From: Pseudomonadota bacterium
GTDB taxonomy: Bacteria; Desulfobacterota; Binatia; Binatales; Binataceae
NCBI GenBank assembly: GCA_021324755.1
Contig: JAJPIL010000007.1
Location: 124,001 to 188,000 of the forward strand
Length of the DNA stretch: 64,000 bases
Direction of reading: 5' to 3'
Shown here in pieces: positions 12,040-15,305 of the stretch. A program made the position numbers and the translations under genes. The notes beneath the pieces were generated by a model that ran no database searches, was not told the origin of the DNA, and saw nothing but the letters and a program-made list of their open reading frames with translations. Numbering within the stretch: position 1 is the stretch's first letter; each line of letters opens with the position of its first letter.

Positions 12040-13158
12040 TCAGACGTCCCTCGCTTCCCATGGCGAGTAGGGATGCATGCCTAGAGCCTCAGCGACTGCC
12101 GGATGGGTTACGCGCCCTTCAAACGTGTTGAGACCGCGACGAATGGCGCTGTTGCGGGCTCCTGCTTCTAGCACCCCATGGTCTGCGATTTCAACCACGT
12201 ATGGTAGCGTGGCGTTGGTCAAGGCGTAGGTGGCCGTGTGGGGAACCGCGGCCGGAACGTTGGCCACGCAATAGTGAACGATGCCAGCGTGAACATAGGT
12301 TGGCCGAGTGTGAGTGGTCGGACGCGAGCTTTCCGCGATTCCGCCTTGGTCGATCGAGAGATCTACCAGCGCGGCACCCCGAGGCATCAGACGCAAGCTT
12401 CGCTCGGTTATTAGGCGCGGCGCCCGAGCTCCTGGAATTAGCACTGCGCCTATGACCAGGTGGGTGTGGCGCAATTCCTCCTCGATCGCGGCACGACTCG
12501 ACATCAAAGTTATGACGTGGCCTCCCATGAGGTCATGAATGTGACGCAGACGCGAGGGATCGCGGTCGACTACCGTGACGTCGGCACCCATGCCCACAGC
12601 GACCTGACAGGCTGCGGTTCCAGCGATGCCGGCTCCGAGAATCAGCACCTTTGCAGGTTTGACCCCCGCCGCGCCACTGAGCAAGACGCCGCATCCTCCT
12701 GCTCTCGTCTGCAGACACCATCCGCCAGCCAAAACCGCCATCCGTCCAGCCACTTCGCTCATCGGTGCCAAAAGCGGCAACGAACAATCGTCCAGCTGGA
12801 TCGTCTCGTAGCCGATGGCGCAAACCTTCTTGCGCAACAGCTCCCGGGCGAGGGTCTTTTCGGCCGCCAGATGCAAAAACGTAAAAAGAATCAGCCCGGG
12901 ACGCAAAAATTTGTACTCGGCAGGCCTCGGCTCTTTAACCTTAAGGATTAAGTCCGCCCGGCGCCACACTTCGGCAGCTGACCTCAGCACTAATGCTCCG
13001 CTTTTGCGGTAGGCATCATCCTCAATCCCGCTTCCCTCCCCTGCGCCTGACTCGATCAGTACCGTATGGCCGTGGTCGCACAAAATCGAAACACCCGAAG
13101 GCGTAATCGCCACGCGATTTTCGTCTGACTTTATTTCCTTGGGAATACCGATGATCAT
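12040..13158 (-). CDS. ald: Alanine dehydrogenase
   Basis: NAD-dependent reversible deamination of L-alanine to pyruvate and ammonia. The N-terminal MIIGIPKEIKSDENRVAI and the ESGAGEGSGIEDD segment are family hallmarks. LKVKEP and FTFLHLAAE carry the substrate-binding lysine and histidine. VLILGAGIAGTAACQVAVGMGADVTVVD is the NAD-binding Rossmann fold. The 372-residue length is normal. It is convergent with the upstream lipoprotein gene (18 bases apart) and divergent from gcvH. It may supply nitrogen or pyruvate alongside glycine metabolism, but the neighbourhood does not prove this. Confidence 0.95.
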   Translation of the reverse strand: MIIGIPKEIKSDENRVAITPSGVSILCDHGHTVLIESGAGEGSGIEDDAYRKSGALVLRSAAEVWRRADLILKVKEPRPAEYKFLRPGLILFTFLHLAAEKTLARELLRKKVCAIGYETIQLDDCSLPLLAPMSEVAGRMAVLAGGWCLQTRAGGCGVLLSGAAGVKPAKVLILGAGIAGTAACQVAVGMGADVTVVDRDPSRLRHIHDLMGGHVITLMSSRAAIEEELRHTHLVIGAVLIPGARAPRLITERSLRLMPRGAALVDLSIDQGGIAESSRPTTHTRPTYVHAGIVHYCVANVPAAVPHTATYALTNATLPYVVEIADHGVLEAGARNSAIRRGLNTFEGRVTHPAVAEALGMHPYSPWEARDV

Positions 13159-13415: not shown

Positions 13416-13425
13416 GCGGAGGAGG
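13416..13425 (+). promoter_or_regulatory. Strong, partly self-complementary ribosome-binding site of gcvH
   Basis: GCGGAGGAGG precedes the ATG by two bases. Two CCTC tetramers just upstream (13398-13401 and 13407-13410) can pair with it; for example CCTCGC at 13407-13412 can pair with GCGGAGG across a three-base loop with one bulge. The site could therefore be hidden in a hairpin. Confidence 0.4.
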
Positions 13426-13427
13426 TT

Positions 13428-13817
13428 ATGGAGATTCCTGAAGGACTTAAGTACTCGAAGCAGCATCACTGGGTTGCACCTGAAGATTCAACGGTGGTAA
13501 TCGGAATTACCGATCACGGCCAGCAGCAGCTCGGCGAAATCGTGTATGTCGAGCTGCCCAATGTCGGCGATAAGATAAGTAAGGACGACCCCTTCGGTGT
13601 AATCGAGTCGGTTACGGCCGAAACTGAGCTTTATGCTCCTGTGAGCGGTACCGTCATCGAGGTCAACGAGGAACTTCCCCAGAGTCCGGAGATTATCAAC
13701 GAAGATCCGTACGGCGACGGTTGGCTGGTTAAGGTAGAGCTTGGGGACCCTTCGGAAATAGATGAGCTCTTGGATGCCAAAGAATATGAGGAGCTGATCG
13801 AATCCGAAAACGAGTAA
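13428..13817 (+). CDS. gcvH: GcvH-like protein lacking the lipoyl-lysine
   Basis: H-protein of the glycine cleavage system by overall sequence: YSKQHHWV, GITDHGQQQLGEIVYVELPNVGD, LYAPVSGTVIEVNEEL, SPEIINEDPYGDGWLVKV, 129 residues. In active H-proteins a lysine in ESVK carries lipoic acid and shuttles the aminomethyl group between P-, T- and L-proteins. Here the segment reads IESVTAETELYAP, so residue 63 is threonine (codon ACG, 13614-13616) and the usual attachment site is missing. A single base change from AAG explains it. It has a very strong GGAGGAGG site two bases before the ATG, and no gcvT, gcvP, lipoyl synthase or ligase gene nearby. It may be a repurposed H-like protein; a sequencing error is possible. 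Confidence 0.88.
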   Translation: MEIPEGLKYSKQHHWVAPEDSTVVIGITDHGQQQLGEIVYVELPNVGDKISKDDPFGVIESVTAETELYAPVSGTVIEVNEELPQSPEIINEDPYGDGWLVKVELGDPSEIDELLDAKEYEELIESENE

Positions 13818-13820
13818 GGC

Positions 13821-15206
13821 TTATCGAGTCTCCGCCTCCGAAGCCTCGTTTGCTTCGCGGGCGGGCTCGACTTTGCCGACTTCAACCTGAAACGCCCGTG
13901 CCAGAGCTAAAGGGGGTTCAATAAAGGCTACGACGAATGGCACAGACTGACCAGGAGGAAGAAGGAAGCTGGAAGGAGCCGGAAGCCTCTGAAAAAACGC
14001 AATCTCGCGCGATGTCATCTGGGCTACGGTGTCCGACTGGATAGTATTGCCGCAGTAAGCGGTTTGCTTGAGAATCCGCTGGTGCTCTTCGCCCAGTAGG
14101 GTCGCGACGATCTCGACGGTATGCAAAGGTGTGGGCGATCGGTTTAGCACCTGCCCGGTTATGACCAGCGCGCGCGTATTGTCTTTCAAGCGTTCAAACT
14201 TTGCGCTCACTTCTCGAAGCTCGACGCGCCTTGCGCTTGACGTCCCTTCCGTTTCGCTGTCGAAAAACGGCAGCCAAGTGAGCAGTTGGCGTCCCAGCGC
14301 AGGATCGCTGGAAATAAGGATGCTCAAGCCGCCAAACAGTACAACGAAAGCGAAAAACACTGCCAAGAAAAAACCGCTCGAATGAGGTGGGCTGGTCGAG
14401 GTCGGCACCCTTGTATGGAAACTGCTTGGGCGACCTAGGCCAGTGACGCGCTCGCTGGCAGCCTGCGCAAAACCGCTTCCAGCAACTCTTATGCCTAGGT
14501 TTCCCCGTTCCTCCTGCCGCAAGCCGCCACGATAGCCGGGTTTTGTGAGTTCGAGGCCGCGCTGGCCTTTCTCAGGTGTGCCTCTCAGCCCGCCAAATCC
14601 CGGCTGGGAATATCCTGCCGCCCCCAACGAACTCTTTGGTCCTGCACCAACGGGGGAATCTCCCGAAAGCTCGTCAATTTGCTTGATGGGCCATTGGGAA
14701 TAAAACCCAAGGCGGCTCTTGCTCTGAAAATTAGGCTTGAAATTCGCAAACTCCGTCGGGTTTAGCTCAGAACCTGCCTCGTCCGCTTCGAATTGATCTC
14801 CCACAACCCATTCGTCTTCGTCGTCCACGTCTTGGCCCAACGTGTCTTGTGTGCTCAGACGATGAGGAGGAACCTCACTGGCGGGAACGGTCGACTGATC
14901 CGTTTGAACAGCAGACGCCATGGGTGGTGGAGAGATGTCGGATGCTGGCGGCGACTTGTCCCTGCTTTCTTGAGACTCGGCTGATACTGCGTCAGCGACC
15001 GTAGCTTTTCCTTCGACGGCTGAGGGAGCGTCACTCTTCGTTGATTTGGCCGACAGCGCCCCGCTCGACGTCCTGGAAGTCTCGAACGCACCCGAAAACA
15101 CGTGACCACATCGGGAACATTTAAAGACAGGGCGGTCTTTGGGAACGATCGACTCGTCGATCCGGTAGCGCGTATTGCAACTCGGGCACTGAATTTCAAG
15201 CATCAT
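13821..15206 (-). CDS. Zinc-ribbon (MJ0042-type) single-pass membrane protein with DUF3426-like domain
   Basis: The N-terminus is an MJ0042-type zinc ribbon: IQCPSCNTRYRIDESIV then FKCSRCGHVFSG. A long Ser/Pro/Glu-rich, probably disordered region follows to about residue 270. One transmembrane helix (FFLAVFFAFVVLFGGLSILI) and a C-terminal beta-rich domain complete it. This arrangement matches DUF3426 proteins, whose function is not established. The start chosen is the ATG at 15206 just before the zinc ribbon; an upstream in-frame ATG at 15239 adds 11 residues and neither has a clear ribosome-binding site. It ends four bases from gcvH in convergent orientation. Confidence 0.8.
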   Translation of the reverse strand: MMLEIQCPSCNTRYRIDESIVPKDRPVFKCSRCGHVFSGAFETSRTSSGALSAKSTKSDAPSAVEGKATVADAVSAESQESRDKSPPASDISPPPMASAVQTDQSTVPASEVPPHRLSTQDTLGQDVDDEDEWVVGDQFEADEAGSELNPTEFANFKPNFQSKSRLGFYSQWPIKQIDELSGDSPVGAGPKSSLGAAGYSQPGFGGLRGTPEKGQRGLELTKPGYRGGLRQEERGNLGIRVAGSGFAQAASERVTGLGRPSSFHTRVPTSTSPPHSSGFFLAVFFAFVVLFGGLSILISSDPALGRQLLTWLPFFDSETEGTSSARRVELREVSAKFERLKDNTRALVITGQVLNRSPTPLHTVEIVATLLGEEHQRILKQTAYCGNTIQSDTVAQMTSREIAFFQRLPAPSSFLLPPGQSVPFVVAFIEPPLALARAFQVEVGKVEPAREANEASEAETR

Positions 15207-15305
15207 ATGCTTTGTGGCCGACTGGATGTAGCCTAGCATAGAGCGGCTGGAGAAGACATCAATGATCTCACAAACGCTTACGCAATTGAGATCGCGACCA
15301 TAGGT

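Follow-up and report, generated by a model that had tools for sequence, protein, structure and literature searches.

H-proteins are the textbook carriers of lipoate, and annotation pipelines give the name GcvH to anything that scores above the profile threshold. According to PMC7733448, Glu-12 and Glu-14 of E. coli H lie beside the aminomethyl nitrogen, and release of the arm is controlled by Ser-67. Relatives of GcvH acting outside glycine cleavage are also on record: LbpA of the sHdr system, whose 95 aligned examples all retain the lysine and, apart from certain archaeal members, two conserved cysteines (PMC6067878), and GcvH-L of the SirTM/LplA2 operon, an H-like protein that is lipoylated by LplA2 (PMC5049849; structure 5a35). 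A lysine-less GcvH is announced in none of the titles and abstract openings of the literature searched, a report elsewhere being possible. A further family model, TIGR03077 (not_gcvH), describes what we take to be a GcvH homologue separated from glycine cleavage.

The protein considered here is encoded at 13428..13817 (+ strand) of the window, i.e., the whole stretch of 64,000 nucleotides that was analysed, which belongs to a genome of 3.07 Mb in 29 contigs, 95% complete. Its open reading frame of 129 codons matches Pfam GCV_H along its full length with 154.6 bits and passes the TIGR00527 gcvH equivalog model (163.2 bits; cut-off, 115.85). The phmmer comparison with the PDB places residues 12, 14, 63, 66, 67 and 69 opposite residues 12, 14, 64, 67, 68 and 70 of E. 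coli H, as counted along the alignment to 3a7a; the E. coli lysine facing residue 63 is the known lipoate-bearing one, and its place is taken in the window protein by Thr63 (ACG, 13614..13616, + strand), the adjoining Glu60-Ser61-Val62 being retained. AlphaFold (20 sequences) returned a pLDDT of 86.3, lowest at residues 81–100, and a pTM of 0.79; the best structural matches of the predicted fold in the PDB are H-proteins (1htp, TM 0.95, rmsd 1.1; 1onl, TM 0.92, rmsd 1.3), and the fold of the threonine form is predicted to be intact. The original prediction, made from the DNA letters, of an otherwise full H-protein with threonine at the attachment site is thus borne out by the open reading frame, both profiles and the PDB alignment.

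The window protein shares with GcvH (PF01597, TIGR00527) the sequence profile, the predicted fold, the length, an alignment over its whole length and synteny with the lysine-bearing orthologues of its family, but it lacks both the lipoyl lysine and the Glu12/Glu14 pair (Gln12 and His14 instead), and neither a P protein nor a true T protein was detected in its genome, which is ~95% complete. What likens it to LbpA and GcvH-L is that these, too, are H-like proteins placed outside glycine cleavage; unlike LbpA, as characterized in PMC6067878, it has neither Lys63 nor a cysteine anywhere in its sequence, and unlike GcvH-L, lipoylated according to PMC5049849, it has Thr63. Neither an hdr-like gene nor the genes of the SirTM/LplA2 operon occur among the annotated neighbours (thiolase, hisS, aspS, ald, zinc ribbon, glycosyltransferase), and the score against not_gcvH is 74.6 bits, below the cut-off of 144.05.

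Orthology of the threonine form

The gene is present in 40 of the 41 genomes of the family, the exception (G005) being 53% complete. We take the family to be Binataceae, since records named as Candidatus Binataceae and Binatus soli encode these H proteins, six such records matching six of the genomes letter for letter in H. Residue 63 could be read in all 40 H genes and is lysine in 37 and threonine in three; the comparison of close relatives at this position, proposed with the original prediction, did not therefore return lysine throughout. Two of the three threonine genomes (G015 and G027) form one genus and the source genome (G000) belongs to another genus of the same family; locus L034 (FK3.bin127) was taken to be the same as that of G015 and counted once. 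The suspicion that a one-base sequencing or assembly error at 13615 had turned AAG into ACG, which indeed differ by a single base, can be set aside as extremely improbable, since the threonine of both other genomes is encoded by ACC and is accompanied by the linked replacements E12Q, E14H and A31G.

The gene is flanked by a divergent alanine dehydrogenase gene (ald, 12040..13158, − strand), found beside H in both other threonine loci, and by a convergent gene for a zinc-ribbon protein (13821..15239, − strand) whose DUF3426 match lies slightly under the cut-off and which also recurs in both. The order hisS, aspS, predicted lipoprotein (recognized by eye, with no Pfam match), ald, H, zinc ribbon, glycosyltransferase is the same in all three threonine genomes. 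In the 11 lysine-type loci examined (10 genomes), ald adjoins H in 10, the exception being G008, the zinc-ribbon gene is found in 11, the glycosyltransferase gene in 10 and, within the stretch compared, aspS in seven. The threonine rows form a single clade both on the ald tree (support 100/100), which includes the 24 of 30 loci with an ald of sufficient length, six being left out, and on the H tree computed without the cavity columns (95/94). As judged from gene order and phylogeny, the threonine form is a vertical, syntenic orthologue of ordinary gcvH, and Thr63 appears to have arisen once in the three genomes, so that all that is said below of this form concerns three genomes of a single origin.

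The sequence GGAGGAGG stands as a ribosome-binding site directly 5' of the ATG (13418..13425, + strand) and is identical in all three threonine genomes. It had been singled out as very strong; the site is there but is not special, because five of the 28 lysine-type loci compared (L013, L014, L017, L026 and L028) carry the same one. A search for riboswitches with Rfam matched only tRNAs in the window and in the loci of four relatives.

The lipoyl cavity in the threonine form and in other H-like proteins

The three threonine rows were compared with 43 lysine rows, i.e., 34 from the family (28 distinct proteins), that of G008, also of the family, and eight from outside it. Glu14, Ala31 and Lys63 are invariant in all 43 and are replaced by His, Gly and Thr, respectively, in all three threonine rows, where position 12, Glu in 42 of the 43 lysine rows and Gln in that of G008, is always Gln. 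In the window the first two of these changes, E12Q and E14H, fall in the Gln-His-His codons 12–14 (13461..13469, + strand), and glycine replaces alanine at codon 31 (13518..13520, + strand). The cavity serine, Ser-67 of E. coli H, is invariant at position 66 of the lysine rows and becomes Thr, Ala and Ala in the threonine rows, the window having Thr (13623..13625, + strand). Further changes common to the threonine rows are L68, Q85 and E113. With Glu12, Glu14 and Ser66 replaced alongside Lys63, residues that hold the arm were lost together with its attachment point.

Four of the six cavity sites named in the literature (12, 14, 63, 66, 67 and 69) are identical in the three threonine rows, three of them being replacements and the fourth, Tyr69, ancestral. 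These data bear on the possibility that the emptied cavity, with Gln12, His14, Gly31 and Thr63, was remade into a non-covalent ligand site, the protein being a sensor or binding protein. The identity of the four residues in the three genomes speaks for this, such agreement being a rare outcome of neutral drift: a neutral codon simulation gives each site a chance of 0.02–0.07 of being identical in all three, with kappa 3 and conservative branch lengths assumed and with the sites known beforehand to be shared, which favours the result. On the other hand, residues 65–67 differ within the threonine clade, so that two of the six cavity positions (66 and 67) drift, and lysine-less lineages at large have no new motif in common, position 63 being T, R, A, S, N, G or H and position 14 being H, L, V, T or M.

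The wider comparison comes from a tree of 88 chosen rows (14 lysine-less) and 119 columns, which has many unresolved forks and is not a census; the LbpA-like rows L126, L129 and L150 and the AMK protein L002, described below, were left out of the count. On this tree the lysine trait needs five changes, four of them forced by supported branches. Position 31 is not Ala in 13 of the 14 lysine-less rows vs one of the 74 lysine rows, position 14 is not Glu in 14 of 14 vs 15 of 74, and positions 66 and 69 are each changed in 11 of 14 vs eight of 74, these counts being inflated by relatedness and the independent-pairs test yielding four supported pairs, too few for significance. The first two contrasts, too, would suit a ligand site, and the occurrence of Gly31 together with a lysine in L002 and in L126 and L129, whose rows read EANK, tells against a strict rule linking 31 and 63. 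All in all, we regard the ligand site as an unlikely reading.

A second H-like clade (support 97/89) is represented in 13 of 22 other genomes of the class and constitutes the only H of G047. Lysine is present in four of its 13 members and replaced by R, A, S, N or G in the other nine; these nine (L168, L169, L170, L173, L175, L178, L181, L183 and L184) belong to other families of the class, and eight of their nine genomes also have a lysine-bearing H. When the G047 protein served as query against the phylum, 272 of 395 genomes gave matches at E 1e-25, and among the 30 loci read two lysine-less proteins (L216 and L218) from two further families were seen, with His in G301 and Arg in G321; both have Gly31 and Leu14 as well. 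TIGR00527 accepts, besides the threonine form of the window, seven of the eight second-clade proteins tested, six of which are lysine-less (out of seven lysine-less ones tested) and the other, that of G038, has lysine. Enolase-like genes lie in the neighbourhood of several second-clade genes, and no partner gene emerged from this neighbourhood, ORF picking in such high-GC DNA being noisy.

The source genome has a second H-like gene as well (C29:106832-107326, also delimited as C29:106919-107263; L127:8833-9327, + strand), ~17 kb before the window. Its site reads AMK and not the ESVK sought in a second gcvH; the genes that accompany it are those of an aldehyde dehydrogenase, an NAD-epimerase-type protein and a kinase-type protein with sugar-binding and nucleotide-binding domains (SBD_N/NBD_C), and its product could be lipoylated or biotinylated. 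Replacement of the threonine form by this gene offers no general answer, for a second H-like match is lacking in G027 and the only two in G015 are LbpA-like. The LbpA-like genes L126 (contig C17 of G015) and L129 (contig C24 of G008) share their contigs with LplA-like ligase genes, which suggests a set for sulfur oxidation of the sHdr type in some members of the family.

Glycine cleavage and lipoate in the threonine genomes

The original prediction noted that no glycine-cleavage partners are encoded near the gene; for P and a true T protein this proved true of the whole genome. A genome-wide profile search did not find GDC-P in the source genome, and the protein is missing in six of 57 genomes: the three of the threonine form, two with Lys63 (G016 and G021) and G047. 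The best GcvT match has 290–341 bits in the other 51 genomes and 64–125 bits in the same six; the only GCV_T match of the source genome, with 76 bits over profile positions 51–253, is unlike a true GcvT.

In the lysine genomes of the family gcvT-P1-P2 is located away from the H gene, and in four of six lysine relatives (G003, G017, G011 and G013) gcvT adjoins folD, an adjacency also absent from the other two (G001 and G002). In the three threonine genomes folD is intact, in mid-contig, between recD2-like and HD-domain genes (flanks assigned by a Pfam run on the copies of the source genome), and gcvT, gcvP1 and gcvP2 gave no match at E 1e-4 in the 14–20 kb around it, at a site that is one-sided, the folD/recD2 flank being all that lysine relatives and threonine genomes have in common. 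That incomplete assemblies hide these genes is unlikely, since they are missing in three genomes 95–96% complete and both the genome searches and the mid-contig folD site are without them. In the 20 kb around folD of G021 they were not found either; the site by itself is no proof of loss, G001 and G002 being alike in this.

Both G016 and G021 are without gcvTP and yet keep Lys63, so that loss of these genes alone is not enough to make the lysine disappear. All six genomes devoid of gcvP have an H-like gene, that of G047 being lysine-less (Arg). Threonine and absence of gcvP are associated with a Fisher p of 0.0017 over 34 genomes, a descriptive figure only, the three threonine genomes representing one event.

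Lipoate metabolism has been retained. In the source genome lipA (C1:43112-43972) adjoins a gene of the LplA/LipB octanoyltransferase/ligase family (C1:42438-43001), taken here as the putative lipB, and an E2 gene lies nearby at C1:40201; the family search took in the source genome and G015, and in each of the three threonine genomes there is a LipA above the cut-off along with at least two E2s. The organism keeps lipoate, through LipA and the putative LipB, for the E2 components of 2-oxoacid dehydrogenases. The presence of these genes, together with the retained Glu60-Ser61-Val62, might suggest that the threonine form is still a carrier of lipoate or acyl groups, by way of another residue or of unrelated partners. 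This is very improbable, given that the Glu12/Glu14 pair is gone, that no P or true T protein was found and that threonine cannot form a lipoyl amide; with Thr at the position of the lysine, carriage in the usual way is impossible, as had been foreseen.

Selection and a proposed second role

The strength of selection after the loss can be read from a single unsaturated pair, G027 and G015, pairs with the source genome being saturated in dS. For this pair NG86 gives dN 0.061, dS 0.833 and dN/dS 0.073, and YN00 gives 0.067, 0.667 and 0.100. Same-genus lysine pairs range from 0.017 to 0.103 (NG86, median 0.053, 21 pairs) and from 0.018 to 0.175 (YN00, median 0.067, 19 pairs). The neighbouring genes of the same two genomes all exceed H by NG86 (ald 0.079, aspS 0.094, lipoprotein 0.113, hisS 0.136, glycosyltransferase 0.154) and are all below it by YN00 (ald 0.055, aspS 0.053, lipoprotein 0.048, glycosyltransferase 0.060). 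The three threonine proteins have the same length and no stops, and 91 of their 129 residues are identical, 62 of these 91 showing synonymous codon differences. On the ald topology the H/ald branch-length ratio is 0.96–1.00 inside the threonine clade vs 0.55–0.57 in lysine forms, single lysine pairs reaching 0.86–1.04; relative to ald, the threonine form thus evolves ~1.7–1.8 times faster. These figures point to strong purifying selection on the threonine form after loss of the lysine, as far as one pair can indicate it, and to a constraint that is relaxed in part, yet far from absent.

Slow decay, i.e., a leftover of the lost pathway that is intact through inertia, would account for the faster amino-acid change and for a YN00 ratio exceeding those of four neighbours. 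It agrees poorly with a post-loss dN/dS of 0.07–0.10, within the range of lysine pairs, with the unchanged length, absence of stops and retained ribosome-binding site and with the synonymous differences at so many conserved residues, and we consider it improbable.

The reading that we favour, and judge probable, is that of an H-protein that has become independent of both glycine cleavage and lipoate and is kept for a second, lipoate-independent role. A small lineage of the family has lost gcvT-gcvP1-gcvP2 while the gcvH orthologue stayed. The H-protein would have had the second role already before this loss, most likely that of binding another protein through conserved surfaces; this role would have kept the gene once glycine cleavage was gone, and the site of the arm would then have been free for remodelling. 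That each of the six genomes without P still has an H gene, with Lys63 in two of them, fits an older second role. Against this reading count the faster evolution of H after the loss, the variation of residues 65–67 within the threonine clade, the retention of Lys63 in G016 and G021 and the occurrence of Gln12 in a lysine form (G008). Alanine dehydrogenase is a mere candidate for the partner, named only because ald is the conserved divergent neighbour. Of the repurposed "carrier or scaffold" envisaged in the original prediction, the scaffold fits the purifying selection and the carrier finds no other attachment residue.

More tentatively, and with less confidence than we place in the second role itself, it may be suggested that lipoate was given up several times by H-proteins of Binatota and their relatives, with linked remodelling of positions 14, 31 and 63, giving a lipoate-independent "apo-H" class whose members would share a cellular function older than glycine cleavage and able to persist after its loss. 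If so, the threonine form, still in a syntenic gcvH locus, would be the most recent example.

For genome annotation, "gcvH present" does not imply "glycine cleavage present", and NCBIfam would still name the threonine form GcvH. For the biology of the family, a gcvH orthologue that has lost its acceptor lysine and its partners, yet remains in the usual place and under selection, suggests that H-proteins can have a job beyond the carriage of lipoate, and the lysine and threonine orthologues constitute a natural experiment by which this second job may be found.
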